Shown piece after piece: positions 37-33,106 of a DNA stretch of 64,000 nucleotides. A program made the translations under genes and the position numbers. Source of the DNA: Chlorophyllum brunneum (Eukaryota > Basidiomycota > Agaricomycetes > Agaricales > Agaricaceae). The notes under the pieces are model-generated. The model saw only the letters and a program-made list of their open reading frames with translations, did not search any database and had not been told where the DNA came from. Within the stretch, counting starts at the first letter, position 1. Each line of letters starts with the position of its first letter. The DNA lies in the NCBI GenBank assembly GCA_963576785.1, contig OY756140.1:3162001-3226000 (forward strand), written 5' to 3'.

Positions 37-1208
37 GTCAGCCTAATAGTCGAGTGGTTTGGGTGTAGGCTTAATTCCTACCAGACTGCTTGGCTAGAAG
101 GTCCTGGGTTTGAAACCTGTGGGGGGGATTTATTCTCAACCATGGGAAGTACCAGTGCACGAGGCGTGGTTACTTAGCAATATTCCCGGGTGACACCGGA
201 TTAGGTTGTGTGGTCCTGTTTGGTACTGTCACAGGCTAGCATGGGAGTTGTCACACCCAGCCACATAGCAAGTCACATAGTGATGTCACACTGTCACAGT
301 GTGACCCAGCTATGTGCATCACCCAAGTCCAATATTGGCCAAAGGTGGTGGTGCCCTAATGCCGGGGCCTAACTTGGAAGGATTACCTAAGCCACTGCTG
401 GAGATAGGGCATTATAAGAAGGGGAATGTCGTGATAACAGTCCGACTTGGAGCGTACTGAAAAAAGCCGCTGAGATAGAATACCCCTCCCAGTCCGCTTC
501 AGCATAGTTCCGGTAGTTAGTAGACATAACCCAATCTTCAGATTGAGGATGCTAACTAAGTTGGCTTAAAATAACCTCAGGACCAATCTGGTAGCAGTGT
601 TTGCAAGGTGTAGATCTTAGACAGTTAAGCACAGGGATCCAGGCCATAAGGCATACTGAACCGGCTACTGAGGAATGGGAAGCAACTCTGGGGTAGCACC
701 TGGGTGAAGTTGTGGGCCGTAGCAGGTGATGTATTGGGGCATGCTGAAAAAAGCCATCGGTTATCAGAGAATGCTCACCTGGCTCGAGAGGACTAAATCC
801 TACATTGGTTGGCCTGGTACAGGAAAAATAGCCAGGTTCCAGCTCAAGTTGATTCCACATCGCCATTGGCTAAGGCTGGTGGTAAGAGACCCCTCAAGGG
901 GCTCTATAGATGGGTGAACTAACACTTACTGACCGGGCCTGGTCTCCAGACTGGGTTGCTGGTTGGAAGACCTCCCTACCTGCTTGCCTTCTCTGGCATC
1001 CACTCCCCTCGCCCTCTGGGCTTGGGAGTAGGATGCAATTCCTCCTACCATTGGTCTTGGGCAATGGTACTTATGCTTGGTAGGGCATAGCTACTCTTTC
1101 TCCATAGATACCCACTAGAGTACTCATTTGTATTCCGGCTGCAGGCTGTGTTTGAGCACCACGTAATAAATTGGCCCTAGGCTACGAAAAAAATAAAAAA
1201 TAAAAAAT
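37..1208 (+). mobile_element. SINE-1: tRNA-Leu-headed SINE with LINE-B type 3' tail
   Basis: A 1.17-kb non-coding retroelement inserted into A1. The head (37-120) aligns with the D-arm, anticodon arm and T-arm of a type-II tRNA: stem GTAGG/CCTAC around a CTTAATT loop, anticodon TAA, so tRNA-Leu(UAA)-like. The body (about 120-910) is shared with SINE-2 and SINE-3. The tail (about 910-1208) matches the LINE-B 3' UTR and ends in an A-rich (TAAAAAA)n tract. It is flanked by a diverged target duplication, AAGGTGTTTAGGCC at 22-35 against AAGGCATTCAGGCC at 1209-1222. Relative to SINE-2 it lacks about 190 bp of the tail region. It should be transcribed by RNA polymerase III, if at all, and needs a LINE partner to move. 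Confidence 0.85.
47..117 (+). promoter_or_regulatory. Internal pol III promoter (A and B boxes) of SINE-1
   Basis: The A box reads TAGTCGAGTGG at 47-57 and the B box GGTTTGAAACC at 107-117. The 60-bp offset fits a tRNA with a long variable arm (Leu/Ser type). The B box has TTTGA where SINE-2 keeps the canonical TTCGA, consistent with CpG decay. Confidence 0.75.
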
Positions 1209-3923: not shown

Positions 3924-4204
3924 CGCGGCGCGGCCCCTGCTAGCTTCCCGCGTCTCTGATGTGTGTAGAAGTTAATTGCAAATTGACGCATACTCTCCTT
4001 AGGGAGGGGAGGCAAGGGGTCGCTCTATATATCTGGTCTAGGATTCACGTGTCCGTGCGTGTTTCCGCGACCGTTCACCCAGACTGCCTGTCAGTGGTCT
4101 AGTTCGGCCAGGAGAGAGCCTATCTTCGTGTACCTTTACATTGTAGCCTACATGTCACAGTAGATACAGGTGGACTGCGATTGCACACCACCTTAAACAT
4201 GTTG

Positions 4205-6951: not shown

Positions 6952-7195
6952 TGCGGCGCGGCCCCTGCTAGCTTCCCATGTCTTTGACGTGTGTAGAAGT
7001 TAATTGCGAATTGACGCATACTCTCCTTAGGGAGGGGAGGCAAGGGGTCGCTCTACGTATCTGGTCTAGGAGTCACGCATCCGTGCGTGTTCCCGCGACC
7101 CTTCACCCAGACTGCCTGTCGGTGGTCTAGTTCGGCCAGGGGAGAGCCTATCTTCGTACATCTCTATATTGTAGCCTACATGTCACAGTAGATAC

Positions 7196-7221
7196 AGGTG
7201 GACTGCGATCGCGCACCACCT
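7196..7221 (+). other. LINE-A 3'-terminal hairpin
   Basis: AGGTGG and CCACCT form a 6-bp stem around a loop containing the palindrome GCGATCGC, about 10 nt before the poly(A). The hairpin is found at the end of every LINE-A copy and in the SINE-3 tail. It is a plausible RNA signal for recognition by the LINE reverse transcriptase. The role is inferred from position and conservation. Confidence 0.6.
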
Positions 7222-7230
7222 TAAACATGT

Positions 7231-9087: not shown

Positions 9088-9337
9088 CCCATACACAGAG
9101 CCCCTTGTAGGCAAACTCCTAGTAGCCCAGAGATGGGGGTCTTGAGACAACATGTGCCCATAGAATACCCAGCATATTCCCAGGCTCCCATATTGGTGTC
9201 ACATCCAGCCATGTTGCAGGGACTTTGCCCCTCCTAAGAGGTAAAGCCTTTAGCTTGGGTGGACACCCCACTACTGAGAGAGCATGGTATCCCTGAGGAC
9301 TGGCCCATTGTTTGCTTGAGGCATCCTTCCTATACTT
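9088..9337. repeat. Repeat R1a (250 bp)
   Basis: Starts CCCATACACAGAG and ends GAGGCATCCTTCCTATA. A second copy lies on the other side of A4 (20010-20104 plus 23624-23796, split by A5), with differences mostly at CpG. No coding potential was recognised. The two copies exactly bracket A4, so one explanation is an unusually long target-site duplication. Confidence 0.7.
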
Positions 9338-9643: not shown

Positions 9644-10187
9644 TTATCCAACTCCCGCATGTGGTATGTTGGACTTAAACACAAATGCTAGGGGGTTGCA
9701 CTTAAGAAAAGCTACCAGCTGGTCAATAGAGACCAGCAGGCCATGATGTCTCTTGTATAAGAGACAAGAGCACAAGATATGAGTGCAAGTCTCCAGAGGA
9801 GCCCCGCACTCGCAGCCAATAGGCTCTAGAGGATGGAACTGGGAGCAGTACTCGCTGGTTGGTGCATGCCTGAGAATGGCACAATTCGCCCTCGTCGCAA
9901 TGGACTGAGAGGGAAAGGAAGAAAGCCAAGAACCTCTATGGAGGTACATTGGCTGTAGAACTTTGTTCTTACTATCCTTGAGAACAAGGAAGTTCGAACT
10001 GTGATAGGAGGAGTCTTGGAAGGTCTGTAACCTTGCCAGCTGGGTGACATGTTGCACAAAGCAGCCATGTCCCCCTATAAATGTGGGCAGCCAAAACTGC
10101 CTGGTAGTCTCCAAACAGTGGCAGACTTGCGTCTGTTGCTGCGTAGACAATCTGTCTATCCTCACAATACCCACAGAGGGTATCATT
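9644..10187 (-). pseudogene. LINE-A ORF2 C-terminus (copy A4)
   Basis: Minus-strand reading gives the RNase H start region (YAATDASL counterpart, here in a shifted frame), then a deletion to FQDSSYHSSNFLVLKDSKNK and the C-terminal motif CECGAPLETCTHILCSC, ending GVG plus stop near 9644. The SINE-2 target duplication (10172-10187) interrupts it upstream. Confidence 0.8.
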
Positions 10188-11545
10188 TTTTATTTATTTA
10201 TTTATTTATCATGGCTTAAGGCCGATTTATTACGCGGCGCTCGAACACAGCCCACGGCCGGAATACAAATGAGTACTCTAGCAGGTATCTACGGAGAAGT
10301 GGTAACTATGCCCTACCAAGCAAAAGTACTGTTGCCCAAAACCAATGGTAGGAGGAATTGCATCCTACTCCCAAGCCCGGAGGGCGAGGGGAGTGGACGC
10401 CAGAGGAGGTGAGTGGGCAGGGAGGTCCCCCAACCAGCAACCCAGTCCAAAGACCAGGCCCAGTCAGTAGGTGTTAATTCACTGTAAATGCCCGGCGGTA
10501 GAGACGTACCCAGTTACTAGCCCAGCTAGGCCCCAACTTCCCCTTACTAAGACCCAGTCCCCCAGCCATGGTCACTCTTGCCAGAGTAATTGACTGCACC
10601 ATTTGTGTGGCTATCGGCATCTTCACCACACCTAGTCGCCGTAGGGTCCAGGCCTGTTCATTGGTCACCTGTCTACGGAGCCCCTTGAGGGGTCTCTTAC
10701 CACCAGCCTTAGCCAATGGCGATGTGGAATCAACTTGAGCTGGAACCTGGCTATTTTTCCTGTACCAGGCCAACTAATGTAGGATTTAGTCCTCTCGAGC
10801 CAGGTGAGCATTCTCTGATAACCAGCGGCTTTTTTCAGCACACCCCGGTACATCACCTGCTATGGCCCACAACTTTACCCAGGTGTTACCCCAGAGTTGC
10901 TTCCCATTCCTCAGCAGCCAGTTTGGTATGCCTTACAGCCCGGATCCCCATGCTTAACTGTCTAAGATCTACACCTTGCAGACACTGCTACCAGATTGGT
11001 CCTGAGGTTATTTTAAGCCAACTTAGTCAGCATCCTCAATCTGGAGATTGGGTTATGTCTACTAACTACCGGAACTATGCCGAAGCAGACCGGGAGGGGT
11101 ATCCTATCTCGGTGGCTTTTTTCAGCATGCCCCAAGTCGGACTGTTATCACAACATTCCCCTTCTTATAATGCCCTATCTCCAGCAGTGGCTTAGGTAAT
11201 CCTCCCAAGTTAGGCCCCGGCATTAGAGCACCACCACCTTTGGACTTGGGTAATGCACATAGCTGGGTCACACTATGACAGTGTGACATCACTATGTGAC
11301 TTGCTATGTGGCTGGGTGTGACAACTCCCATGCTAGCCTGTGACAGCACCAAACAATGCCAAACAGGACCACATAACCTAATCCGATGTCACCTGGGAAT
11401 ATTGCTAAGCAACCACACCTTGCGCACTGGTACTTCCCACGGTTGAGAATAAATCCCCCCCATAGGTTTCGAACCCAGGACCTTCTAGCCAAGCAGCCTG
11501 GTAGGAATTAAGCCTACACCCAAACCACTCGACCATTAGGCCGAC
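10188..11545 (-). mobile_element. SINE-2: longest tRNA-Leu SINE copy with LINE-B tail
   Basis: A 1,358-bp insertion in A4, minus strand. The head at 11545-11460 is tRNA-Leu(UAA)-like, followed by the shared body (about 11460-10665). A tail of about 430 bp (10640-10210) matches LINE-B 3' UTR positions 32701-33134 almost end to end. It closes with a (TAAA)n tract (10188-10209 on the plus strand as TTTTTATTTATT). The 16-bp duplication CACRGAGGGTATCATT flanks it at 10172-10187 and 11546-11561. It is the best reference copy of this SINE: it retains CpG sites and a canonical B box. Confidence 0.93.
11465..11535 (-). promoter_or_regulatory. Internal pol III promoter of SINE-2
   Basis: On the minus strand the A box TGGTCGAGTGG lies at 11535-11525 and the B box GGTTCGAAACC at 11475-11465. 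The B box keeps the canonical TTCGA. Spacing matches SINE-1 and SINE-3. Confidence 0.78.
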
Positions 11546-11633
11546 CACGGAGGGTATCATTGAGCAAATCTACCTGACAACCCACAGGGTTTCCACTGAG
11601 CGAGGCATCATATGTCTTGTAAGTCACCTGGGC

Positions 11634-11833
11634 NNNNNNNNNNNNNNNNNNNNNNNNNNNNNNNNNNNNNNNNNNNNNNNNNNNNNNNNNNNNNNNNNNN
11701 NNNNNNNNNNNNNNNNNNNNNNNNNNNNNNNNNNNNNNNNNNNNNNNNNNNNNNNNNNNNNNNNNNNNNNNNNNNNNNNNNNNNNNNNNNNNNNNNNNNN
11801 NNNNNNNNNNNNNNNNNNNNNNNNNNNNNNNNN
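11634..11833. other. Assembly gap (200 N)
   Basis: Exactly 200 undetermined bases inside the RNase H-proximal part of A4. Flanking LINE-A sequence is colinear, so the true missing sequence may be very short or absent. 200 looks like a placeholder length. Confidence 0.95.
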
Positions 11834-12409
11834 CCACATAGCAGTCCAGAAGATGAGAACCTGGAGATGCTTCGAGTGCAAATGGCTCGAATGTCTCTGT
11901 TAAGTCTGGCAAACGAGAGTTTGCCTCCATGACCAGCCTCTTGACCTTGACTGCCTGAGCGGAGGTCATGAGAGCGATTGATCTGGGGTGTGGAATACAT
12001 CCCCCTATATACTGATGTCCCATAACGGAGGATGGTTCTCAGAAAGGGTGGCAACCCTGTGGATGGCACGGGTAGCCAGTTTCTTGAGATGAAGATGGAT
12101 GGGGATAAGGCCAGCCAAGGCCTCAGCTCCTCCGGTAGGGCTGGTGCAGAATGCACCAGTGATCCACAACACAGCTTTACACTGCATAGTATTAAGTTGT
12201 TTCAGAAGGGCCTTGTTACAGGCACTTTCATAAAACCACAAACGAAACCCATACGTAGCAATAGGCACTACACATGAGTGATACAGAGTCCTCTTCTGAA
12301 CAGGAAGAAGGCCTCACGATGAGTTACCAAGCATGCCCATGGCCTTGACCATGGACAGAGACTTAGTAGCATAATGACAAACATGCTCTTTGAAGGTAAG
12401 AGCCCAGTC
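11834..12409 (-). pseudogene. LINE-A ORF2 RT C-terminus (copy A4)
   Basis: On the minus strand: LFWFYESACNKALLKQLN, LWITGAFCTSPTGGAEALAGLIPIHLHLKKLATRA, then SIALMTSAQAVKVK and PDLTETFEPFALEASPGSHLLD. It matches A2 residues around 310-450. It is broken by a frameshift near 12025 and by the SINE-3 insertion at 12409. The continuation is 19951-20009. Confidence 0.83.
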
Positions 12410-13557
12410 GGTCGGCCTAATGGTCAAGTGGTTTGGGTGTAGGCTTAATTCCTACCAGGCTACTTGGCTAGAAGGTCCTGGGTTTGAAACCTGTGGGGGG
12501 GGATTTATTCTCAACCATGGGAAGTACCAGTGCGCAAGGTGTGGTTGCTTAGCAATATTCCCAGGTGACATCGGATTAGGTTATGTGGTCCTGTTTGGCA
12601 TTGTTTGGTGCTGTCACAGGCTAGCATGGGAGTTGTCACACCCAGCCACATAGCAAGTCACATAGTGATGTCACACTGTCATAGTGTGACCCAGCTATGT
12701 GCATTACCCAAGTCCAAAGGTGGTGGTGCTCTAATGCTGGGGCCTAACTTGGGAGGATTACCTAAGCCACTGCTGGAGATAGGGCATTATAAGAAGGGGA
12801 ATGTTGTGATAACAGTCCGACTTGGGGCATGCTGAAAAAAGCCACCGAGATAGGATACCCCTCCCGGTCTGCTTCGGCATAGTTCCGGTAGTTAGTAGAC
12901 ATAACCCAATCTCCAGATTGAGGATGCTGACTAAGTTGGCTTAAAATAACCTCAGGACCAATCTGGTAGCAGTGTCTGCAAGGTGTAGATCTTAGACAGT
13001 TAAGCATGGGGATCCGGGCTGTAAGGCATACCAAACTGGCTGCTGAGGAATGGGAAGCAACTCTGGGGTAACACCTGGGTAAAGTTGTGGGCCATAGCAG
13101 GTGATGTACCGGGGTGTGCTGAAAAAAGCCGCTGGTTATCAGAGAATGCTCACCTGGCTTGAGAGGACTAAATCCTACATTGGTTGGCCTGGTACAGGAA
13201 AAATAGCCAGGTTCTAGCTCAAGTTGATTCCACATCACCATTGGCTAAGGCTGGTGGTAAGAGACCCCTCAAGGGGCTCTGTAGACGGGCGTGGCCCCTG
13301 CTAGCTCCCCATGTCTCTGGCATGTGTAGGAGTTAATTGCAAATTGACGCATACTCTCCTTAGGGAGGAGAGGCTAGGGGTCACTCATCATTCTGGTCTA
13401 GAATTCATGTATCCATGCACATTTCCATGACCGTTTACCCAGACCACCTGTTGGCAGTCTAGCTTGGCCAGAGGAGAGCCCATCTTTGAGTACCCTATAT
13501 CGTATGTACATGTCATAGTAGATACAGGTGGACTGCAATTGCACACTACCTTAAACA
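12410..13557 (+). mobile_element. SINE-3: tRNA-Leu SINE with LINE-A tail
   Basis: The head (12410-12495) and body (to about 13288) match SINE-1 and SINE-2. At about 13290 the sequence switches to the LINE-A 3' UTR (GTGGCCCCTGCTAGC onward). That tail is cut at 13557 by Gypsy-1 and completed at 19924-19950 with the LINE-A end and poly(A). The 15-bp duplication GGTAAGAGCCCAGTC flanks the whole unit at 12395-12409 and 19951-19965. The chimera therefore inserted as one molecule. Its pre-Gypsy length is about 1.17 kb. Confidence 0.93.
12421..12491 (+). promoter_or_regulatory. Internal pol III promoter of SINE-3
   Basis: A box TGGTCAAGTGG at 12421-12431 and B box GGTTTGAAACC at 12481-12491, in the tRNA-Leu-like head. 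Confidence 0.75.
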
Positions 13558-13849
13558 TGTTACGACCTTAGTCTGAGACTCAGGTTGCAAGTCTTTGGAT
13601 AAAGACAAGGAAATAGAGAGAAGAGTAAGGGATGATACGATTGGTAAAGTGTAAGGAATACATCAAGTATGACTATACTTTATATACTAGTGGTATGGGC
13701 TAAGAATAAAGGAACAGAGTAAAGGAGTCATAGGGGATGAGTAGAATGAGTCAATGAGAGTACAGCCATAAGGGATGAAACAAATACATAGAAATGATAA
13801 ATGTGCGGGCACATGATAAGAATGTACTGTCTATCTATAGTTCATAACA
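13558..13849 (-). repeat. 3' LTR of Gypsy-1
   Basis: 292 bp, starting TGTTACGACC and ending TTCATAACA on the plus strand. It matches the LTR at 19632-19923 at about 96 percent by eye. The element's polypurine tract adjoins it at 13850. Confidence 0.95.
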
Positions 13850-13863
13850 ATACCTCCCTTTTT
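13850..13863 (-). other. Polypurine tract of Gypsy-1
   Basis: On the minus strand AAAAAGGGAGGTAT ends directly at the 3' LTR. This is the expected primer for plus-strand DNA synthesis in an LTR element. Confidence 0.75.
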
Positions 13864-13892
13864 ACTTTCATGACCCCATGAAATACTGTAGT

Positions 13893-14834
13893 CTACTTGT
13901 CATCTTGTTCTTTGTATAAGGTGTTGACAAGTTGTCGTTTGGTGGGACCAATCATTGGAGTTCCTGATTTGCGTCGACATCCAATCCAAAAGGGGGCGTG
14001 GTCTTGGCCTCCTCTAAAGAGGGCTATGGTGCATCCTTTGAATGTAGCGGTATCGTTTGTTTTGGCTGCAACGAGGTTGTGTATTATCTCCTCCCAGTAG
14101 TTTTCTTCAAACTGTCCTCTGTCTTTGAGTGTAAGATAGGATGGGGGTGGATTGAATACTGTTGGTTTGGGTGGCGGATCCATATCAGGCAGTTGTATAA
14201 GGAGGTGGTCTACTTCATCTCGCATGTCTGGTTCCATTAGATGGTCTGGGACAGATTTGTCGATTCCCTCCATCCCTTCGTCTAACCAGTCCTATTCATC
14301 GTCTTTGTGGTAGGGCAGTTTGTCGGGTAAGGTAGTGGGGATGTAAGAGTCAAGATCCATTAGTCTCCATGCAAGTCTGTAGGTGGGATTGTTGCTCAAG
14401 TCGGTGAGGTGATTGAGTCTTTCACCTGTTATGATTAAGGCACTTTGGATGCATTTCTTTGCATCAGAGTGCACTAGTACATTGAGATCAGCGGCGGCTT
14501 TGTCTAATAACTCCTTTATGAGTTCATGTTTCCCAGTTGACATGGCAGCAGGAAGGGCTCTGGTAGTGGTGACAAGTAGAATACGGCTCAGTGCTTTGGC
14601 TTGGATTTGGAGGTTGTTGATGGTATGTGCGATGTATGTGAGTCCTTTGGTTGTGGCAGTATAGTGCTCGATTTGATCTCCGGTGGGCTGAGCATCAAGG
14701 AGGTTGTTAAGTTCTTGTTCGAACTCTGCGTCATTGGCAGGAAAGGGGGTAGGCTTGCGTTCGGTGTGCATGGTGTGTTGTGAAGGTAATTGGTGAAGTT
14801 TATGGTGCAATGGATACAGCGAGAGGTGCGTCAA
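13893..14834 (-). pseudogene. Extra 3' ORF of Gypsy-1, unknown function
   Basis: A reading frame of about 313 codons between the chromodomain and the 3' LTR, same strand as gag-pol, split by one TAG at about 14290 (the related copy has CAA there, so CAG or CAA to TAG). It starts near MTHLSLYPLHHKL or at the later MHTERKPTPFP. It contains a helical acidic stretch (FEQELNNLLDAQPTGDQIEHY), IAHTINNLQIQAKALSRILLVTT, and a C-terminal part with PPPSYLTLKDRGQFEENYW and HAPFWIGCRRKSGTPMIG. I see no signal peptide, membrane segment or catalytic motif. The position is that of env, but the protein looks soluble and intracellular. The counterpart at 53535-54443 keeps the protein pattern despite strong base divergence. 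Function unknown. Confidence 0.7.
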
Positions 14835-14879
14835 GTGTAGTGATCTCTTGTAACATGGGGTTTGTTGTTCATAATTGTC

Positions 14880-17800
14880 ACCTTTTACCCCCCCTTTTTA
14901 TAGGTTTTGTCCTCGAAATCTTGTCTAAAAATTCTTGAACTGCCTCCTTAGCATTTCCTAACTCTGACTCATTCTCCCATGTGTCTTCTTCGGAGGTATA
15001 CCCTTTCCAGTGTACTAGGAATTGATTTTGTCGTCCTCTTTTGCGATGTCCTCAGATTTTGTCTACTTCATATTGTTCTTCATCGTTGATAATCTCAGGT
15101 ATCGGTGGTAGTGGGATGCACTGGCTGTCAAACTTGGGTTTTCAATAGGGGGAGAGGAGTCTGCTGTTAAATATATCATATATCGCCCATGTTTCAGGCA
15201 ATTCCAATTGGTAGCTTGTTTTGCCTATTTTTGCTTTTATCCTGAATGGTCCATATTGTTTGTGATCCAGCTTTTTGGTTGGTCTTGTTGTCCTAATATT
15301 ACTTGCTTAGAGCCAAACTTGTTCTCCTAGAATGTACTCGTGTTCCGGTTTAATGTTGTTGCATTTCTCCATTTGTTCCTGACTGTGTTGTAACATCTTT
15401 GTCGCTTCTCATCGCATGTTTTGTAACTCCTGTATTCATTCCGTGATTGCAGGTGCTTTGGTAATACTTGTTATGTCTCCTTTCCAAGGGTGTCATCCAT
15501 AAACTATTTCAAATGGTGAATATCCGGTGGCTGTGTGGGTTTTGTTGTTGTATTGGAATTCTGCTGTCACTAGCCATTTCTTCCAATTGTCTTGCGCATG
15601 GTTTATTACATTTCTGAGGTATGTTTCAACCTCCTGGTTGATGCGCTCCATTTGACCATCGGTTTGTGGGTGGTATGCCGTGGATAAGTTTCACTGGGTT
15701 CCTGTTGCTCAGCATAGTTCTGCCATGAATTTGGATGCGAATTGTGGGCCTCTGTCACTAATAATTCTTCAGGGTATTCCATGTGTTCTCCATATGTCAT
15801 CTCGATAGATATCTCCTAGCTCCTCGGATGTTAAGATGGTGTTGACTGCACGTAATCTGATCATTTTGCTGAAACGATCGACTATGACAAGTATTGTGTC
15901 ATATCCTTCTGACTCTGGTAATGGTCCTATCATGTTGATTGATATCTCTTCCCAAGGTTCCGCTGGTGTCGGTAATGGATGGAGATGTGTTGTCGGTCTT
16001 GTTTGGAGTATTTTATTTCATTGGCATACTTCACATCCTTGGATGTATCATTTGACGTCGCTGCGCATCTGGGGCCACCAATAACTCCGTTTAAGGAGTT
16101 CGATCATTCGATATTGTCCCAGGTGTCCTACATCTGTTTCGTCGTGGTGTTGTCATAGTATTTCTTGTCATATTTGGTTGTTGGGTGGAACATATATCCT
16201 TCCTTCAAACATTGGTACCCCATCTGTTTCCCATATCTCCTTTGGTCACTTCTCTTTTTCTTTTAGCCATTGTGTTTCTCTTCTTGTCTCCTTTCGTATT
16301 TGGTGTTTCAGATCTTCTTCCCCTGAGATTTCCCAAATTTGTCGGATTGTGGTGATCATGCTATCGTCGAATAAGTGGTCGGGTAGTAGGGTGATATCAG
16401 TGTTGTCTCGAGTAGTGTCCGTTTTTGTTAGTCTTGACAAGACGTCGGCTTTTGTGTTGGTTTTTCCGGGGATATGTTTCAGCATGTAATGGTATTCTTG
16501 TAGCTCTATTTGCCACCTCGCTTGTTGTCCTGTGAGTTGTTGTGGTTTTTGGAAATATTCCAGGTTTTTGTGATCGGTCCATATTTCGAATGGTTCGTCT
16601 GTGTTGAGTAGATATTGTCTCCAGGTCTTGATTGCTTCTCGAATGGCGAGTAATTCTTTATCATAGATCTGATAGTTTTGTTCTGCAGGTGTCATTGTTC
16701 TTGAGTGGAATGTGATTGGGTACCAATGTTCTTCTTGTTTTTGCAATAATACCACTCCTACTCCATATCCTGATGCGTCCACTTCTACCCTGTATTGACC
16801 CTTGTCCTGTGGCATTGCTAATACCGCTTCACTTGTGATCTTTTCCTTGATACCTTTGAAGGCTTGTTGTTGTTGTTCCTTCTATGCCCATTGTGTGTCT
16901 TTTTTCTTCAACTTGTGTAGTGGGGCTGCTATGTTGCTGAAGTTGTGAATGAATCGTCAGTAGAAGTTTGCGAATCCTAGGAATTTTTCGACATCTTTTA
17001 GGGATTTGGGTGTTGGCCATTCTTTCACCGCTTTCACTTTCTCCTCCTCCATTTTAACACTACCTTGTCCAACCACAAATCCTAGTATAGGTATTTCTTT
17101 TGCATCAAATACGCATTTCGATCTTTTGAAATATAGTTGGTGCTTCACCGCAATGTCGAGAAATCATTTTGTTCTGTCTTTAAGTTCCTGTTGTGTGGTT
17201 CCCGGTATGATGAAATCATCCATGTAGTTGACAACTGCTCCTTCATGTAGCATTTCCCGAAAGACAGTGTTCATCATCCTTTGGAACATTGCTGGTGAGT
17301 TACTCATTCCAAAAAACATGACCGTTGGTTCGAACAGTCTGTTGTTCATTACAAATGCTGCTTTCCATTCATCACCTTCTCTTATCCTGACGTTATTGTA
17401 TCCCCAGATGATGTCGAGTTTGTTAAAGACTTTTGTGTTCTTGAGCTTATCGATAACTTTGCTTATGAGCAGAAGTGGCATTTTGTCTTTGATCATGTGT
17501 TCATTTAGCTTCTTGTAGTCTTGTACCAGTCGTTTGGTTCCATCTTTCTTGGGTATAAAGAAGCATGGTGTAGCGTAGGGGGATTGTGATGGTCGAATTT
17601 GTCCTGAGGCAATATTTTCATCGAGGAATATTTGCAGTTCTTATTTCTCCATTAGTGTCATTAGGTAGACCTTGGACTGTAATACCGGTGGTGCGTCTTC
17701 TGTCAAGTTTATTTTGTGGTCCCATATTGTATGTTCCGGTAGTTTTTCAAAGTTCTTCTTGTTGAACAGGTGCATATATGGCTGCAGGTATGTCAGTAGG

Positions 17801-18294
17801 TCCTCTGGGTTTGTTTGGTCAGTTTTCTTTTCCTTTATATGTTCTTTTACCGTGCGTATTCTTTCATTGAACCATATATCGTTGTGGTGGGTGGTGCAAT
17901 CCTTTGGACATCTATTGAGGCATATTATGTTGTTTGTCCAATCAATTTCTGGGTTGTGCTTGACTAGCCAATCGTGTCCGAGATATAGGTCCATGCTCTC
18001 TAGTTGTGTTACCATTACTTCGATTTCTTCCGTGTGTTTGCCATTACTTAATACCAGTTGTGCCATATCTGTTATTTCCCCCTTCTTGTTTTCGGTTCCG
18101 TCGGCATTGATTACTCGTATTGGGGTTTCGAGGGGTTTGGTTGTGATCTGTTCTTCTTCTACTATCCTCTGTGCTATGCACGTGTGTGTACATCCGGAAT
18201 CCACCAGTGTGGTGATTTGCTTGGGTCCTTTCTTTGTTCTGATCATTGAATCGAGGAGAAGTTTGCGCATCGAGTTTTGTTTTTGCGGGATCAC
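14880..18294 (-). pseudogene. Gypsy-1 pol: protease, RT, RNase H, integrase, chromodomain
   Basis: One pol frame on the minus strand with several stops. Protease: LVDSGCTHTCIAQ near 18200. RT: PSQSPYATPCFFIPKKDGT (about 17600), then VNYMDDFIIPG with the catalytic YMDD near 17215. RNase H: VDASGYGVGVVLLQK, YDKELLAI and WTDHKNLEYF at 16790-16550. Integrase lies at about 16245-15200 and is heavily broken. A C-terminal chromodomain at about 15090-14920 (QYEVDKI...FLVHWKGYTSEEDTWE) makes this a chromovirus. Chromodomains of such integrases bind modified histone tails and can direct insertion to heterochromatin. Stops at about 17638 (CAA to TAA), 17160 and 16988 are all explained by transitions. 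No ATG opens pol, so it was probably made as a Gag-Pol fusion. Confidence 0.9.
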
Positions 18295-18353
18295 ATATCG
18301 TCTATTGTGACATAAAACAGAAACTCTAGGTTTATTGGCTTGCAGGTTTGCGC

Positions 18354-19538
18354 CTACTTGGAGCCTTCGACAAAATCCTCTTTTGTCTCTTCTTCTATCT
18401 CCTTGGTAACCTCTCTGATGTGTGCTTTCTTCGGTGCTTTACAGTTCTTCGAGATGTGGCCCTGTTTGCCACAGTTATAGCACATTATTTTGGTGTATGC
18501 TATCTTTGTCTTCTTGCGGCAGTATTTGGCAATATGCCCATAGAGGTTACAGTTAAAATACCTCGGTTTGCCGTTCTGATCAGTGTCTGCCCTCTGTCTA
18601 CCAATTTCCATTGGTTGTCCCCCACCTCCATAGGTGACTCCTGTGCTTGTTCTGACATCTTCTCGTGTGATGTCCGTTGTTTTGTACCCCTGTCCTACTG
18701 CAAGGATGGTGTTTCTCCATTTGCTGTATGTATCTGGGATTGAGGCTGCTGGATAGCCTACAATGGTTTGGATAATGTCTGCTCTGGTATGTCGTTTGAG
18801 AAGGAATATGGCATGCACATCATTGGTTCCTGCTTGGGTTTTCAATGCTTTGAACTCTATTAAGAAGTCCGCAGTGTTCCTCGTTCTCTGTTTGAACAAC
18901 TCAATTTCCCCTTCTGCTATTGCTTTCCTATTCCCCAAGGAGAAGGTAGCTACCATCTTCTTTGCGAAGTCCTCGAATGCCGGTGTTTTCTTATCTTGAA
19001 TCATTTGTAATTTGGCATTGGCATAGGGACCTGCAAGTCCCCCTTTCATTTGAGCTAATATTCTGATTATCTTTTGCTCATTATCATCAATTTTGTTGAA
19101 GAGTGTCCATAAGGACATTGCCCTCCACCAATTGTCAAACTTGGTTCTATCTCCATTGAAATATCCTGGTTCTGGGGCTAGATTCTTTGGGAAGTTGATT
19201 TCATCGGCCATCTCTGATTCTGTTTCTGGTTTGCTGTGTTTGTTTTCATAGGTCTCGGCAACTTCTATGTCGGATGTGGCTTCAGCAATTTCTGTATCAA
19301 ATGGGGTCTTGGCAAATTCTATGTCAAATGTGGTCTCAGCAACTTCTGTGTTGAATAGGATCTCGAAAAGAGCTGTGTCTTCTTCTATACTGTGGTCGGA
19401 TTTCTGCCGTTTAAGGCCTTCAGGGAATTCTGGTTCTGTTTGTCGTTTGGATCCAGTGGTTACTGGTGATCCCTGGATATCTGTTGGTCTTGGAGCTCTT
19501 GGTCTTCTTGGTGTTCTCGATGAGCTACTGCTGCTCAT
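18354..19538 (-). CDS. gag: Gypsy-1 gag: capsid/nucleocapsid protein
   Basis: 394 codons, intact. It begins with a serine- and arginine-rich N-terminus, then an acidic stretch of imperfect repeats (FDTEIAEATSDIEVAET type, residues about 62-95). A retrotransposon capsid-like core follows (FDNWWRAMSLWTLFNKIDD, KKMVATFSLGNRKAIAEGEIELFKQ). The nucleocapsid end has two zinc knuckles: Y327-x2-C330-x4-H335-x4-C340, whose first Cys is replaced by Tyr, and a canonical CYNCGKQGHISKNC at 353-366. Gag would form the particle in which reverse transcription occurs. The ATG lies 94 bp inside the LTR-internal boundary, as expected. pol is in a different frame downstream. Confidence 0.9.
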   Translation of the reverse strand: MSSSSSSRTPRRPRAPRPTDIQGSPVTTGSKRQTEPEFPEGLKRQKSDHSIEEDTALFEILFNTEVAETTFDIEFAKTPFDTEIAEATSDIEVAETYENKHSKPETESEMADEINFPKNLAPEPGYFNGDRTKFDNWWRAMSLWTLFNKIDDNEQKIIRILAQMKGGLAGPYANAKLQMIQDKKTPAFEDFAKKMVATFSLGNRKAIAEGEIELFKQRTRNTADFLIEFKALKTQAGTNDVHAIFLLKRHTRADIIQTIVGYPAASIPDTYSKWRNTILAVGQGYKTTDITREDVRTSTGVTYGGGGQPMEIGRQRADTDQNGKPRYFNCNLYGHIAKYCRKKTKIAYTKIMCYNCGKQGHISKNCKAPKKAHIREVTKEIEEETKEDFVEGSK

Positions 19539-19611
19539 ATACTGTCGTCCTGGTCAGAGGCTATTATTCCAAGCCTAGCTATGAATAGTGGCACCTCTCT
19601 TGCAAGGTGAG

Positions 19612-19629
19612 TCGAATGACACTTTACCA
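19612..19629 (-). other. Primer-binding site candidate of Gypsy-1
   Basis: Two bases after the 5' LTR the minus strand reads TGGTAAAGTGTCATTCGA. It begins TGG, as expected for pairing with a tRNA 3' CCA, and it is conserved with C-to-T changes in the relative at 53-59 kb. The tRNA identity was not determined. Confidence 0.6.
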
Positions 19630-19631
19630 AA

Positions 19632-19923
19632 TGTTACGACCTTAGTCTAAGACTCAGGTTGCAAGTCTTTGGATAAAGACAAGGAAATAGAGAGAAGAGT
19701 AAGGGATGATATGATTGGTAAAGTGTAAGGAATACATCAAGTATGACTACACTTTATATACTAGTGGTATAGGCTAAGAATAAAGGAACAGAGTAAAGGA
19801 GTCATAGGGGACGAGTAGAACAAGTCAATGAGAGTACAGCCATAAGGGATGAAACAGATACGTAGGAATGATAAATGTGTGGGCACATGATAAGAATGTA
19901 CTGTCTATCTATAGTTCATAACA
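19632..19923 (-). repeat. 5' LTR of Gypsy-1
   Basis: 292 bp, paired with 13558-13849. It contains the promoter region of the element. Followed by the AAACA target duplication. Confidence 0.95.
19752..19760 (-). promoter_or_regulatory. TATA box in Gypsy-1 5' LTR
   Basis: The minus strand reads TATATAAAG about 164 nt into the 292-bp LTR, a normal place for the pol II promoter of an LTR element. The same motif is in the other LTR. Confidence 0.6.
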
Positions 19924-19950
19924 AAACATGATGATTTTAAAAAAAAAAAA

Positions 19951-20009
19951 GGTAAGAGCCCAGTCAAAGAAAAAACCCAAGTACCTCCAATGGGTTTTAG
20001 GGCGTAACG
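19951..20009 (-). pseudogene. LINE-A RT scrap (5' end of copy A4)
   Basis: Minus-strand RT sequence (KTHWRYLGFFFD block) that continues A4 after the SINE-3 TSD and ends at repeat R1b. It marks the 5' truncation point of A4. Confidence 0.78.
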
Positions 20010-20104
20010 GCCCATACACAGAGTCCCTTGCAGGCAAACTCCTAGCAGCCCAGAGATGGGAGTCTTGAGATGATATGTGCCTGTAGAATGCCTAGTGTGT
20101 TCCT
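20010..20104. repeat. Repeat R1b, left part
   Basis: First 95 bp of the second R1 copy (CCCATACACAGAG...). It is interrupted by LINE-A A5, whose TSD TGCCTAGTGTGTTCCT ends here at 20104. The rest is at 23624-23796. Confidence 0.72.
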
Positions 20105-23100
20105 TTTTTTTTTTTTTTTTTTTTATATCATCATGTTTAAGGTGGTGCACAATCGTAGTCCACCTGTATCTACTATGACATGTAGGCTACAAAAAGGGTA
20201 GTATATGAAGATGGGCTCTCCCCTGGCCAAACTAGACCGCCGACAGGCGGTCTGGGTGAACGGTTGCAGAGACACACATGAACGCATGAATCCTAGACTA
20301 GATATGCAAGCGACCCCTAGCCTCCCCTCCCTAGGGAGAGTATGCGTCAATTTGCAATTAACTTCTACACACGTCAAAGACGTGGGAAGCTAGCAGGGGT
20401 TGCGCTGCATTATCCAACTCCCGCATGCAGTATGTTGGCCTTAAATGCAAATGCAGAAGGATTACGTTTAAGAAAACTAACCAACTGGTCAAGAGAGACC
20501 GGCAGGCCACAATGCCTCTTGTACAAAGGACAAGAGCACAAGATATGAGTGCGGGACTCCAAAGGAGCCCCACACTCGCAGCCAATAGGCTCTAGAGGAT
20601 GAAACTGGGAGCGATACTCGCCGGTTGGAGTGTGCCCGAGAATGGCACGGTTTGCCCTTGTCGCAATGGACTGAGAGGGAAAGGAAGGAAGCCAAGAACC
20701 TCCATGGAGGTACGTTGGCTGTAAAAGCTTGTTCTTACTATCCTTGAGAGCAAGAAAGTTTGAACCATGATAGGAGGAGTCCTGGAAAGTGACTTTCCAG
20801 GCCTTCTGAATGGTTGCTACACTGAGTTTGTGCAGCAAATCAATAGACGTCGCTGGACGGCATCCAGTGGCAACTTGTAGGTTGGTGGCAAATACATGCA
20901 CACCGTGATGAATGGACCATTTCGCTGACGATGGAACGGACCAGAAAGTGAGGGAGCAGTCAGGATGATCCCTGAACCACTCCAACAAGAGACGACACAC
21001 AGCCAGGGAATGTCCCTGGCCAGAATGTACGGACGGGTCAAGAGCTCGCTTGGCCGAACCAATCGAGTCCGTAAAGACTGCGATATGTACCACCTCAGAG
21101 ACTGCCACAGCAGTTCCCAAAGCCATACAAATGGCGAAAAGTTCAGCATCTGGGGCTGTAACCTTGCCAGCTGGGTGACACATTGCATGAAGCAAACGTG
21201 TCCCCCTATAAACATGGGCAGCAGAAACTGCCTGGAAGTCCCCACCCAGTGGCAGACTTGCGTCCGTTGCTGCATAGACAACCTGTCTATCCTCACAATA
21301 CCCATGAAGGGTATTATTGAGCAAATCTACCTGACGACCCACAGGGTTTCCACCAAGCAAGGTGTCATACATTTTGTAAGTCACCTGGGTGGCGTAGCGG
21401 TCCAGAAGACGAGAACCTGGCAATGCCTCGAGCACAAATGGCTCAAACACCTCCGTTAAGTCTGGCAAACGAGAGTTTGCCTCTGTGACTGGCCCCTTGA
21501 CCTTGACTGCCTGAGCGGGGGTCATGAGAGCGATCGATCTGGGGTGTGGAGCACACCCCCCAATGTACTGATGCCCCATAACGGAGCAAACAGGGTGATT
21601 CTCAGAAAGTGTGGCAACCCTGTGGACAGCATGGGTAGCCAGCTTCTTGAGGTGAAGATGGATGGGGATGAGGCCAGCCAAGGCCTCAGCTCCTCTGGTA
21701 GGGCTGGTGCAGAATGCACCAGTGATCCACAATGCAGCTTTATGCTGCATAGTGTTGAGTTGTTTCAGAAGGGCCTTGTTACGGGAACCTTCATAAAACC
21801 AGAGTCGAAACCCATACGTAGCGATAGGAACTATGCACGAGCAATAAAGAGTCCTCTTCTGAGCAGGAAGAAGGCCTCGCAAAGAGTTACCAAGCATGCC
21901 CATGGCCTTGACCATGGACAGAGACTTGGTAGCATAATGTTGAACGTGCTCTTTAAAAGTAAGAGCACGATCGAAGAAAAAACCCAAGTACCTCCAGTGG
22001 GTCTTAGGGCGTAATGGAGTGTTGCTAGTATGGGGAGCATACCCCAAATCCAGCGGTGGGTTGTCATCTCCCTGTTTATGGGAGAAATGAAACACTTTGG
22101 ACTTGTTGTGCTCGACGGCAAGCCCAAACAAAGTAGTCAAGCAATATATAATTTGGTATGCCTGCTTGAGGCACACCAAATTAGGTTCCCAAGTTTTAGC
22201 TTGGGCGATGGCAAGGCCATCGTCGACATATGAGAGCAAGGTACTCCCAAGGGCGATTGCCTCCCTATCATAAAGCTTCATGAAGGGGGCAAGATAGAGG
22301 CCGGAGAGGACAGGAGAGAGTGAAGAGCCCTGACCCACCCCAATGTCCGCCTGTCTAAGATCAGACTTATGGTCTTCCCATGCGTACTGTGTAAAGCGGC
22401 CAACTAAATAAGAGGCAAAGAATCTCCCTACACAGGGGTTGAATCCTTGCTTCCGTAAAATTGCCAACAACATATTATGGTTGAGCAAAGGAAAGAACTG
22501 AGCAATGTCGAAAGCGACAATGCTAGTTTTGAGGCCCTTGGCCCACCCTGCATGAACAATGTGGGTTAGGAGCATCCCAGCATCATCAGTGGACCTCTGA
22601 TGGATACCACCAAGCTGATTTGGATGAAAAACTCCATGTTTGATGGAGTCAAACTGGAGGCAATTCGAGATCATCTTCTCGATGAGCTTACCGAAGGTGT
22701 TCAGGAGCACAATGGGCCTGAACGCCTTGGGCGTTGAATAGGACGGCTTGCCTGGCTTCGGTATGATGACCAACAAGCTCTCCTTGAAATGGGATGGCCA
22801 ATGCCCCACACGCATGCAAGCATTAGCTATTCTGATGAATAGCCGGAGGATATCGGGGTCCTTGGTGATCTCTTTGAGGTGGGTCCACGTTACATGGTCT
22901 GGCCCCAGGGCAGACACACCCGAGCATATGCTCAGGACGTCCATCAGCTCTAAGGCTGAAAAATGGACCCACTCCCTAGCCAGAAGACTTGGCAGTGGAT
23001 CAAGAATGGAAATATCCACAGCTCGGCCAGAAGCTGAATTGTAGGTATTGTGGAGTGCATCCCAGAGGTCTGGGAGTGCATGACATGGCTCTCCATTGTA

Positions 23101-23623
23101 CTAGATAGCCTTGCAGGGTGGAAGCATCCGCTTTTGGACCCATTCCATAAGGTCCCATGGTCGCTTGTTAGTAGAAGCAATCTCCTCAATGTGAGCATCA
23201 AAGAAGTTGCACTTAGCGCGCTTCTTAGCACATCTAAAATTAGAGTAGTCATCATGAGAACGAGTCTCACGATATCTCCCAAAGGTTTTGTGGCATTCCT
23301 GGTTCCACCAGGGTTTAGAGCAGTGAGTGATCATGATGTCCACTGCATGAGCTTCCTACACAGTGGAAAAGGCCTCTGCCATAGCATGAACTGTGGCTTC
23401 GACCTCATCAGTAGTAGTAGGTTCCAGAAGTCTAGCTACTTCCCGGAGGTCCTGGATAACATCAGTGAGGAAGAGCGCTATCTCTTTGCCACCATCATGC
23501 AGCAGGGTTTTCCTGTGAGTCTCCACTATCGTGGGAATGACTAGAAGCATCAGAACCAGTGGAACATGGTCTGACAGACCCCTAAGGGAGTAATCCAACC
23601 TAGGCCTATGGGAAATAGACAGG
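20105..23623 (-). mobile_element. LINE-A copy A5: longest LINE-A copy
   Basis: A 3.5-kb minus-strand insertion in R1b with poly(T) at 20105-20123, the LINE-A 3' UTR, and ORF2 from inside the endonuclease to the end. TSD TGCCTAGTRTGTTCCT at 20089-20104 and 23624-23639. It is 5'-truncated within the endonuclease domain and has two in-frame stops. It is the best source for the LINE-A ORF2 order: endonuclease end, linker, RT, RNase H, zinc motif. Confidence 0.94.
20410..23598 (-). pseudogene. LINE-A ORF2: endonuclease C-term, RT, RNase H (copy A5)
   Basis: One continuous frame of about 1,060 codons with two stops, at 23356-23358 and 23101-23103 (the latter TAG where CAG/Gln fits). The last 869 codons (from MDISILDPLP, 23019) are open. 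N-terminal part: endonuclease end RLDYSLRGLSDHVPLV with the conserved S-D-H. Then the WWNQECHKTFGRYR linker, GPDHVTWTHLKE and PSYSTPKAFRPIVLLNTFGK, the RT blocks FDIAQFFPLLNH, GQGSSLSP and YVDD (residues 264-267 of the open part), RNase H D586/E626/D651, and the C-terminal CECGAP...THILCSC motif. It would nick, prime and copy in an intact element. Here it lacks the endonuclease N-terminus. Confidence 0.92.
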
Positions 23624-23796
23624 TGCCTAGTATGTTCCTAGGCTCCCATATTGGTGTCGCATCCGGCCATGTTACGGGGACTTTGCCCCTCCCTCCTAAG
23701 AGGTAAAGCCCTTAGCTTGGGTGGACACCCCGCTACTGAGAGAGCGTGGTATCCCTGAGGACTGGCCCACCGTTCGCTTGAGGCATCCTTCCTATA
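23624..23796. repeat. Repeat R1b, right part
   Basis: Continues R1 after the A5 insertion (CTAGGCTCCCATATTGG... to GAGGCATCCTTCCTATA). It is the same sequence as 9173-9337, with CpG-type differences. It then passes into a distinct region at about 23797. Confidence 0.7.
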
Positions 23797-24954
23797 TGGT
23801 ACACGGATGGGATCTCACCACATGACTGCACATGTTGCCACTCCAAATCCAGACTACTTATGTGATATCAACTTAAACAGGTATACTCTATTGTTGATGG
23901 AGACCCATTGATGGAGGATCTAGACCTCTTGAGCTAGGCCGCTCCTTCTCAGTAACCGGGTGGCTTTTTTCAGTGCACTTCCAGTAAATGGCCCACTATG
24001 GTCCACTAGTTGGGCAGGCAGAGGCCACGAAGGCGTACCTCCAAGGCGCAACTCCTGGACTAGCTTCCCGTTCCCCTACAGCCACTTTTGCTATGTCCTA
24101 CCCCTAGAGGAAGCAACTTGTCTTTGGGCACGGATCTGCGTGCTAATACTGGCAGGGATCTCCATCTTGCAGGGGGCGCTACCAGGGTGGTGTTCACATT
24201 GGATCACATAAGCAACCTCCAGAACAGGTTACTAAGCAATCCACAGAACAAGTGCCAATCAACCTGAGTTTCCCTATGTCAACCCGTATCTGCCCAGTGT
24301 CCTGGAGTTTGGCATATCCCTACTAATGACCAGGTGCTACCCCCAGAGGGGTTCCCAAAGGCATGGTGACACTGGTGGGGGGTGGCCTGTCCTTTTAGTT
24401 GGCTTGTTTTCACCTCCATACCCCCTATTACCGTCCCTTATCCTTTCGGTCCCTTTTGGGTGCGACAGGGCGGCTTTTTTCAGTGCACTCCCCACAGACG
24501 TGCAAGCACAATTAGGGGTAGGCCCAGACATCCGTCATCAGCCAGGATAACCCAGTCTTGAGATACTAGCTGGACTTGAGCTGTAGCAGGAGTTAAAACT
24601 GCCATGCGAACCCTGTATGGGACTACAACTCCATTGGATTGATAGAAGGGCTGCCACCACTGGCAACCCAGCAAGTGCAAGCGAGCGAGGTGACCAGTAC
24701 TCCAGCCTTTAAGACCCTTTACCAAGGGGCCACCCTGTCAATCTGTGTATATAGGTGTCAGTCAGATGAACAGTAGGGATATACCCACCTTTAATTACCT
24801 TTACCAAGGGTGTGCTGCCCATTGACCAAGTAACGTTCCCACACGGACTGCCCCTCTACAGCCAGCAAAGGCTCAGAAAAGACCCAGGCCCATGAGAGAG
24901 AGCCCAGGAGATGAAAGGTGCAATAGGGAAAGGAAGTGGAAAAAGTGGTAGTGG
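23797..24954 (+). repeat. Diverged relative of the SINE body
   Basis: No coding homology recognised. The sequence shares scattered blocks with the antisense strand of the SINE body: GGCTTTTTTCAG followed by YRCAC at 23962 and 24472, AGACCTCTTGAGCTAGG...CTCAGTAACCGGGTGG, and a CTTCCCGTTCCCC...CAGCC stretch like the SINE CTTCCCATTCCTCAGCAGCC. The order of blocks is the same as in SINE-2, so it looks like an older or different subfamily. Neither a tRNA head nor a tail with TSD was identified. Confidence 0.5.
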
Positions 24955-25040
24955 TGGTAACAAGTCAAGGAGTGATGTGACAAAGGAAGTCAAGGGAGGT
25001 TTGTGGATGGGGACCCACAGCAACCTGGAGCTCGGTCATC
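24955..25040 (-). mobile_element. LINE-B ORF2 C-terminal scrap
   Basis: On the minus strand it matches the segment after RNase H in LINE-B (TKLQVSVGSCLQTSLDSLC in copy B2). It adjoins the 5' end of a plus-strand LINE-B piece. Confidence 0.6.
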
Positions 25041-25884: not shown

Positions 25885-26304
25885 GGAGGTTTATGTCTCC
25901 AGACTTCCTGGAAAAGTGGAAAATTTCAGACTTGTCATGCTCCATGACCAGCACAAACACTATGAAAAGATTGAAGAGAACAATGTATGCCCCCTTGAGA
26001 GTGTCCAAGTCCTGCTGTTGGTCTTGGGCAATGGCACTTCTACTTGGTAGAGCATAGTTACCATTTCTCCACAGATACCTGCTAGAGTACTTGTTTGTAT
26101 TCTGGCCACAGGCTGTGTTTGAGCATCATGTAATAAATTGGCCTTAGGCCATGATTCAAAAAAAAAAAAAAAAAAGAGGGTGTCCAAGTTCTCATCCCAG
26201 GTTTTAGCCTGGACAATGACAGTGCCATCATTGATATAAGACAACAGAGTACTCCTAGGGGAAGTAATCCATAAGTTGAAAACCTTCATAAGAGGGGGGA
26301 TATA
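25885..26304 (-). pseudogene. LINE-B RT middle segment (copy B1)
   Basis: Minus-strand reading over 26304-26176 and 26009-25885 gives PPLMKVFNLWITSPRSTLLSYINDG, where YIND replaces the usual Y-x-D-D (second Asp position Asp, first changed to Asn). It continues TVIVQAKTWDENLDTLKG...VMEHDKSEIFHFSRKSGD. It ends against B4. A 166-bp tail-only insertion splits it. Confidence 0.8.
26010..26175 (+). mobile_element. Tail-only LINE-B/SINE insertion
   Basis: 166 bp consisting solely of the LINE-B/SINE 3' terminal region (GGTCTTGGGCAATGGCACTTC... to GGCCTTAGGCCATGATTC) plus poly(A). It is flanked by GAGAGTGTCCAAG (25997-26009) and GAGGGTGTCCAAG (26176-26188). It is an extremely 5'-truncated insertion, and its parent may be LINE-B or the SINE since both share this tail. 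Confidence 0.88.
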
Positions 26305-32600: not shown

Positions 32601-33086
32601 CTGGCTTAGGGTAGGTGGGTTATTGTCTGGCGCCGGAGAACTCTGGTGAAAGTCTGGTGAAGACCGTCGGAGTTTTATGAATGGAGTTGTCCCCTTCGGT
32701 GACTAGGTGTGGTGAAGACGCCGATAGCCACACAAATGGTACAGCCTATTACTCTGGCAAGGGTGACCATGGCCAGGGGAATGACTCTCAGTAAGAGGAA
32801 CTTTGGGGGCTAGTAGCTAGACCGGTAACTGGGGGTTTCCATTGCTGGGCATTTGCGGTGAATTAACACTTACTGACTGGGCCTGGTCTCTGGACTGGGT
32901 CGCTGGTTGGGGGACCTCCCTACCCACTTGCCTCCTCTGGCATCCACTCCCTTTGCTCTTCGGGCTCAGGAGTAGGACGCAATTCTGTCTACTGTTGGTT
33001 TTGGGCAATGGTATGTATGCTTGGTGGGGCATGTCCACCACTTCTCCGTAGATACCCGCTAGATTACTCCTTTGTACTCTGGCCAC

Positions 33087-33106
33087 GGGCTGTGTTTGAG
33101 TGCCAC
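33087..33106 (+). other. LINE-B 3'-terminal core
   Basis: GGGCTGTGTTTGAGTGCCAC lies 30 nt before the poly(A), preceding AATAAATTGGCCTTAGGCC, in which GGCC-TTA-GGCC is a small palindrome. Present in B3, the tail-only insertion and the SINE tails. Confidence 0.5.

Follow-up and report, generated by a model that had tools for sequence, protein, structure and literature searches.

The closest described relatives of the elements reported here are the MINE of Magnaporthe, fusions of WEIRD with MGL that were reportedly described by Fudal in 2005. In a 64,000-nucleotide stretch of contig OY756140.1 of Chlorophyllum brunneum (GCA_963576785.1, positions 3,162,001 to 3,226,000, forward strand; hereafter the window), a tRNA-Leu-headed module of about 880 nt (M1) and a variant of a second module (M2b, related to M2) are fused to long interspersed nuclear elements (LINEs); genome-wide, the LINE triplet that precedes the junction depends on the module. 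An earlier note had read the three M1 copies of the window (SINE-1, SINE-2 and SINE-3) as short interspersed nuclear elements (SINEs). tRNA-derived SINEs with LINE-like tails have a tRNA-like head with RNA polymerase III (pol III) box-like sequences and a non-coding body, and depend on LINEs for insertion.

In MINE, the WEIRD RNA is fused to MGL, and the chimerization sites, 28 among 33 chimeras, show a GCC triplet before A/U, which was read as a pause site; the sections of that paper dealing with the junctions give one main partner, one motif and no micro-homology (PMC2104539). Mammalian U6/LINE-1 chimeras have been ascribed to template switching (PMC4476161), and to either RNA ligation or template switching (PMC13174262). 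Where these papers treat the origin of LINE chimeras, they put them down to RNA ligation or to template switching, the latter occurring either by chance or where the enzyme pauses (PMC2104539, PMC4476161, PMC13174262).

By their sequences, the M1, M2 and M2b chimeras are MINE-like, and would be new in their partner-dependent, guide-matched sites. Like MINE, they consist of a non-coding RNA of about 1 kb with a fixed end, joined in the same orientation to a 5'-truncated LINE at many positions and flanked by target-site duplications (TSDs); no solo copy, a preferred triplet before the LINE part and several elements at one site are further common traits, as far as the MINE paper describes them (PMC2104539). 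Unlike MINE, there are three related partners here, three motifs on one template and a matching 4-nt guide, and M1 bears a tRNA-Leu head. The U6/LINE-1 chimeras, which contain a full-length RNA of pol III type, are likewise sense-joined to a 5'-truncated LINE with TSDs, but the parts of those reports concerned with them mention no partner-encoded guide for the LINE site (PMC4476161, PMC13174262). None was reported for LINE chimeras in the literature searched, which comprised open PMC papers, most subscription papers lying outside the search. The likeness of M1 to tRNA-derived SINEs extends to its tRNA-Leu-like head, with what, by the consensus, would be pol III box-like sequences, its non-coding body and its LINE-dependent insertion. 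Unlike those SINEs, M1 carries no 3' tail of its own for a partner LINE to recognise, since its LINE tail is not fixed but varies by site.

Module M1 has one end and many LINE junctions

The head and body common to SINE-1, SINE-2 and SINE-3 were confirmed. The modules of SINE-2 and SINE-3 are inverted repeats of 99% identity over 794 nt (10668-11461 and 12496-13289), and SINE-1 shares 91% identity with SINE-3 across 37-914; ARAGORN predicted tRNA-Leu(UAA) heads in two of the three copies (38-128, plus strand; 11454-11544, minus strand). The tail matches also agreed with the earlier note: SINE-1 (914-1205) and SINE-2 end in LINE-B and SINE-3 in LINE-A, the queries being the tails of SINE-2 and SINE-3 themselves. 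The switch, previously placed at about 13290, could be fixed exactly, with the first LINE-A base at 13290 directly 3' of GGG (13287-13289).

The genome (38.9 Mb in 14 contigs, the window lying on contig C2) was then searched with the 26-nt 3' end of M1, allowing up to 2 mismatches. At least 73 module ends were found, compared to none for a reversed-pattern control, and a looser pattern showed 73 to be a lower bound. All share one stopping point, with RGG in 70 of the 73 and a near form in the other 3; in line with this, 42 of 42 scored body matches (from 40 of 95 candidates) reach query position 870-879. By contrast with this fixed end, the 69 ends that could be aligned across the junction by an uninterrupted copy fall at 53 distinct sites, with at most 4 copies per site, and no solo M1 copy was seen among these 69 of 73 ends. 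By best match, the 3' neighbours (n = 73) were LINE-A (25), LINE-C (11), LINE-B (10), other repeats, some of them unclassified (23), M2 (1) and none (3). Tails tabulated genome-wide therefore differ from site to site and do not form the two tail classes that had been proposed. On LINE-A itself, 18 of 24 M1 junctions lie upstream of the 3' untranslated region (UTR), leaving out one locus (L010) whose target is an M2b copy; within the 3' UTR, five other M1 copies join 5 nt further in than SINE-3. The exact SINE-3 junction is unique genome-wide, as a one-off template switch would have it, yet 23 other M1 copies join LINE-A, so SINE-3 represents neither a subfamily nor a one-off.

The second module, M2 (1.43 kb), and its variant M2b have an M1-like 3'-terminal design and core hairpin and are likewise fused to LINEs at many sites. 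The M2 sample comprised 34 ends without the M1 signature from the first 100 of 117 listed places, of which 32 were alignable, at 26 sites; for M2b all 38 ends found were used, 35 of them alignable, at 25 sites. M1 and M2 each contain two versions of the core hairpin, and three of its base pairs differ in both bases from one version to another. In one M1 copy (L166) and one M2 copy (L030) the stretch between the two hairpins is absent, as if deleted by recombination or slippage between hairpin repeats. That M2 is simply the 5' UTR of LINE-A is doubtful: four LINE-A copies (L033, L053, L061 and L074) continue upstream without M2, into an open reading frame (ORF) that, read by eye, is endonuclease-like.

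The LINE triplet before the junction depends on the partner

When the junction was placed directly behind GGG, and a pattern was scored as present if at least one of up to 8 aligned copies had it, M1 targets read CGN followed by a base other than G (CGNH) in 54 of 69 cases, compared to a mean of 5.2 and a maximum of 11 at 30 other offsets. M2 targets read CTYH (29 of 32; mean 2.1, maximum 7 at other offsets) and M2b targets CCWH (26 of 35; mean 2.7, maximum 8). CTYH occurred at none of the 69 M1 junctions and CGNH at none of the 32 M2 junctions.

The same was observed on a single template. Mapped on the LINE-A reference copy, M1 junctions followed CGN in 22 of 24 cases (21 of 23 without L010) and never CTY or CCW; M2 junctions followed CTY in 23, CCW in 2 and CGN in 0 of 25; and M2b junctions followed CCW in 23, CTY in 6 and CGN in 1 of 31. 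The triplet before the junction therefore depends on the 5' partner and not on the LINE. In one stretch of another LINE (CTCGA/TCGT/CCGA/ATGCC-like, slashes marking the joining points), three neighbouring CG sites are used by M1 copies. Cutting linked to codons was ruled out, as junctions fall in all three codon phases. Comparison of the base at -1 with each single position of M1 gave no column above the 95% permutation limit, in an alignment disturbed by 5'-truncated copies.

A candidate guide box matches the partner-specific sites

A conserved box with a variable 4-mer was found in each module: GGGGAAT-GTCG-TGATAACAGTCC in M1 and, at the homologous place, GGGGGAAC-GGAG-TGATAACAAGCC in M2 and GGGGGTATG-GAGG-TGAAAACAAGCC in M2b. 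As RNA (GUCG, GGAG and GAGG), the 4-mers are the reverse complements of LINE positions -3 to +1, namely CGA/C, CTC/C and CCT/C, so that a feature like reverse splicing, guide pairing across the joining point, is found here as complementarity.

All 256 4-mers were ranked by pairing score over all alignable targets, with G-U counted at half value. Each box 4-mer ranked first of 256 for its own partner's targets, with means of 3.22 (M1), 3.33 (M2) and 3.11 (M2b) out of 4, the other two partners' box 4-mers ranking 14th to 70th; elsewhere, at offsets from -12 to +12, scores did not exceed 2.4. Further, among 201 homologous M1 and M2 windows (12 or more identities in the 16 flanking bases), the box alone had both 4-mers at rank 1, the runner-up having a rank product of 168. 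The pairing rule, although found post hoc in one genome, is well supported.

The M1 box was readable in 45 of 73 copies, as GTCG (19), GTTG (15), GTCA (8), GTTA (2) or GCCA (1), variants which, except GCCA, are explicable by CpG decay of GTCG. Other places for a guide, namely terminal hairpin loops, the RNA 5' end and the 3' stem, were considered by eye only, and none of them suited all three partners at once. No fourth partner appeared among 100 listed places of the box search, one odd match (L178) being unrelated.

The chimeras were inserted as units

The earlier claim that the chimeras were inserted as units is supported by their TSDs, its details standing in part. SINE-3 has the expected clean 15-bp duplication (GGTAAGAGCCCAGTC), and for SINE-1, where no exact flanking repeat of 8 or more was found, the diverged TSD is upheld (AAGGTGTTTAGGCC vs. 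AAGGCATTCAGGCC, three transitions apart); SINE-2, for which 15-16 bp had been given, has only 12 exact bp, 3' of its A-rich tail. Among 36 M1 copies with long flanks, 13 have an exact TSD of 9-16 nt adjoining the A-rich tail, and SINE-3 adds one. For the remaining 22 no TSD was established, some of their LINE parts running beyond the sequence examined; at L035 the LINE-A tail was in view, yet no repeat of 8 or more was found.

In 32 of 32 copies tested (of the 36), the 5' flank of M1 differs from the upstream LINE sequence, which rules out insertion of modules into pre-existing LINEs. The many different tails on one nearly identical module (full-length copies, 38 of 73, have a median pair only 2 transversions apart in about 890 nt) imply that chimeras formed anew many times, and M1 copies appear to derive from a single master RNA, with a fresh joining each time. 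Substitutions between M1 copies, e.g. those at 38-914 and 12411-13289 of the window, are concentrated at CpG. Across the 38 copies, the mean minority frequency was 0.288 in 92 CpG-type columns vs. 0.017 in 798 other columns, pointing to methylation-linked or RIP-like (repeat-induced point mutation) CpG mutation of repeats in this fungus.

The M1 head was present in 34 of 36 long copies (a sample picked by score). Thirteen more copies were selected because their base at -1 was not A, and 6 of these were 5'-truncated; a full-length 5' end is thus not universal in M1, 5' truncation being usual for LINE insertion. TTTT was lacking in 34 of 34 M1 copies, which says little as evidence for pol III, the chance of at least one being only 0.70.

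Proposed joining of the modules to LINE RNAs

Starting from what is directly observed (the fixed partner end, the many LINE sites, the partner-specific triplets, the guide-target complementarity, the exact junctions and the TSDs in part of the copies), we infer the chemistry, which may be that of a ribozyme, a guided template switch or a ligase. The exactness of the junctions was judged on the first six LINE bases after GGG, allowing transitions and taking the best of up to 15 aligned copies: 67 of 69 M1, 31 of 32 M2 and 35 of 35 M2b junctions (133 of 136) give no sign, on the LINE side, of bases gained without a template or lost.

Guide-directed joining at the RNA level ranks first, with about an even chance of being correct. 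M1, M2 and M2b would be structured non-coding RNAs with a fixed 3' end ...CGGG, whose 4-nt guide in the conserved box would base-pair with positions -3 to +1 of the LINE RNA, on both sides of the joining point. The partner's 3' GGG would be joined to LINE position +1 and the upstream LINE RNA discarded. Since the fused RNA would retain the LINE 3' end, the LINE machinery could copy it by target-primed reverse transcription and insert it with a TSD. Cleavage and joining fit the position of the junction inside the guide duplex. The span of the guide, from -3 to +1, presumably resembles that of exon-binding site 1 (EBS1) plus delta in group II introns. Linear group II introns can retrohome by the first reverse-splicing step only, on DNA exons, as the relevant part of one study reports, and there, too, the 3' end of a structured RNA is joined to a downstream exon (PMC3280974). 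Unlike these introns, the modules would target LINE RNAs and end in GGG, and no match to a group II model and no domain V was found in them. That the three modules constitute a new class of mobile ribozyme, performing a guide-directed first step of reverse splicing onto LINE RNAs and riding the LINE machinery into the genome, is a tentative proposal, to which we give somewhat less than an even chance. By analogy, WEIRD of Magnaporthe could be another such member, its GCC motif being read by a guide of its own.

Several observations weigh against the first-ranked explanation. The strict motif is absent from 15 of 69 (M1), 3 of 32 (M2) and 9 of 35 (M2b) junctions, and all four pairs, G-U allowed, are present in only 38 of 69, 23 of 32 and 20 of 35, respectively. 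The M2 and M2b motifs can be read from a CCTC-like sequence in registers one base apart; among the 35 M2b sites, CTYH was present in 6 at the junction itself and in as many as 21 at a different offset. The guide, of only 4 nt, was located by inspection once the motifs had been established; GTCG occurs four times in M1 and GGAG nine times in M2. When M2 and M2b alone were compared, the box was not the only candidate: each of three invariant GGAGG sites, read with a shift of one base, ranks first for both modules, whereas the M2b copy used (L040) has a decayed box, AAGG, of rank 3. Being the same in M2 and M2b, the GGAGG sites cannot by themselves explain the difference between the two, but the box would not have been picked out from this pair of modules alone. 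Regarding structure, no Rfam family matched M1 or M2 at E up to 10 on a locus carrying both (L006), none matched at E up to 1 on window positions 9900-14100, and the group I and II intron models were unmatched. A simple descriptor of our own for group II domain V gave 0 candidates in M1 and M2, and the predicted fold of the 3' part of M1 is no stabler than shuffles (z -0.92). All of this comes from the DNA of a single genome.

Guided template switching, which ranks second, is possible though clearly less probable. Here the same guide would bind the LINE RNA, and the LINE reverse transcriptase would jump from +1 to the partner's 3' GGG with no ligation. It draws on the same guide and TSD evidence and predicts the same sites, and the 3' GGG bears a likeness to template-switching oligonucleotides. 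Template switching is, moreover, the prevailing explanation of MINE and U6 chimeras in the relevant parts of the literature (PMC2104539; PMC4476161). The enzyme would, however, have to stop nearly always inside a 4-bp duplex, after +1, and leave no untemplated bases in the 133 exact junctions. Joining by a protein is unlikely. The LINE RNA would be cut, with or without direction by the guide, and an enzyme of the tRNA-ligase type would join the partner's 3' end, as proposed for U6/LINE-1 in a paper whose relevant section lists RtcB for LINE-1 chimeras (PMC13174262); the exact junctions fit, but ligation by itself leaves the partner-dependent, box-matching cut site unexplained. Plain switching of the MINE type at pause sites of the LINE RNA, the guide having no role, is very improbable: the architecture is equal to that described for MINE (5' RNA, 5'-truncated LINE, TSDs and a preferred triplet; PMC2104539, in its account of the junctions), but pausing intrinsic to the LINE cannot alone explain why, on one and the same LINE-A template, each partner prefers a triplet of its own. 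Scarcely credible, finally, is the earlier view of one SINE lineage that replaced its LINE-B tail by one from LINE-A and gave rise to two mobile subfamilies, since shared sites (at most 4 alignable copies; 5 at the LINE-A 3' UTR site) leave room for re-mobilising of a few chimeras, but the 69 alignable junctions occupy 53 distinct sites and the 13 same-site pairs, with transversion distances of 0-3 (0th to 71st percentile), form no clear lineages at this low resolution.

If the partner RNA does encode the choice of LINE site, what had passed for an accident would be a programmed strategy of parasitism, and the preferred triplet of MINE in Magnaporthe could be explained in this way. If the joining is catalysed by RNA, the partner would be a ribozyme parasitising retrotransposons. 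The complementarity between guide and target constitutes a directly testable pairing rule. Overall, the data describe a family of seemingly guide-bearing RNAs fused to LINEs at guide-matching sites, behind which a new ribozyme is possible.

Features of the window and variant copies

The features of the window are collected in Table 1.

Table 1. Modules, candidate guides and fused LINE parts in the window
Feature	Position	Strand	Remark
M1 copy 1 (SINE-1), tRNA-Leu(UAA)-like head	38..914	+	ends GGG at 912-914
SINE-1 candidate guide 4-mer GTCG	428..431	+	box GGGGAAT-NNNN-TGATAACAGTCC (421-443)
LINE-B 3' part fused to SINE-1	915..1208	+	
M2b 3' part, fused to LINE-A	9088..9334	-	
LINE-B 3' part fused to SINE-2	10188..10667	-	
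M1 copy 2 (SINE-2)	10668..11545	-	ends AGG at 10670-10668
SINE-2 candidate guide 4-mer GTTG (probably CpG-decayed GTCG)	11151..11154	-	box 11139-11161
SINE-3 5' TSD	12395..12409	+	
M1 copy 3 (SINE-3)	12411..13289	+	ends GGG at 13287-13289
SINE-3 candidate guide 4-mer GTTG (probably CpG-decayed GTCG)	12803..12806	+	box 12796-12818
First conserved core hairpin of M1 (GCU-GAAAAA-AGC) in SINE-3	12820..12849	+	
Second conserved core hairpin of M1 in SINE-3	13107..13137	+	
LINE-A 3' UTR part fused to SINE-3	13290..13557	+	
Remainder of SINE-3's LINE-A tail and A-run, past inserted element	19928..19950	+	
SINE-3 3' TSD	19951..19965	+	
3' end of another M2b copy, fused to LINE-A	20011..20040	-	C2:3182011-3182040
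LINE-A copy with RVT_1 domain	20134..23623	-	ORF 20410-23019; reference template for junction mapping
Long M2b-type module without 3' domain, before LINE-A	23624..24986	-	box 24401-24424, candidate guide GAGG 24413-24416

The window has other LINE-B 3' ends (26010-26175 and 32692-33152) and other LINE-A 3' ends (e.g. 3927-4199 and 6955-7227). The named protein relatives of LINE-A are mostly from agarics, e.g. Candolleomyces and Cyclocybe (best 120 of 356). Other full-length M1 copies scored are 91-94% identical to SINE-3, with differences mainly at CpG. The SINE-2 and SINE-3 modules, 99% identical, inverted, 0.9 kb apart and with different tails, look as if homogenised by gene conversion.

The LINE-A tail of SINE-3 is split by an insert (13557-19927) bounded by direct repeats of at least 297 nt that are 96% identical (13557-13853 and 19631-19927). 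An ORF within it (18354-19538, minus strand) encodes a zinc knuckle and matches gag weakly; by its sequence, the insert looks like a long terminal repeat (LTR) retrotransposon.

Elsewhere in the genome, several composite copies were observed. At L010 (C4:2544317), M1 is fused to a 5'-truncated M2b, and not to a LINE, at a CGA-type site, resembling the WEIRD-MgSINE chimera described in Magnaporthe. At L006 (1501-3888), M1, a LINE-A 3' UTR fragment, M2 and a LINE follow one another, as either a tripartite chimera or a nested insertion. M1 copies also occur in opposite orientation, in head-to-head pairs with one of the two 5'-truncated (L017 and L026) or with 3' ends facing (L095), possibly by twin priming or nested insertion. 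Lastly, the M1, M2 and M2b ends at the listed places lie mostly in one region per contig on contigs C1-C13 (e.g. C9 0.94-1.02 Mb and C7 1.04-1.36 Mb), with a few elsewhere, some of these near contig ends, suggesting centromere-like retroelement islands.

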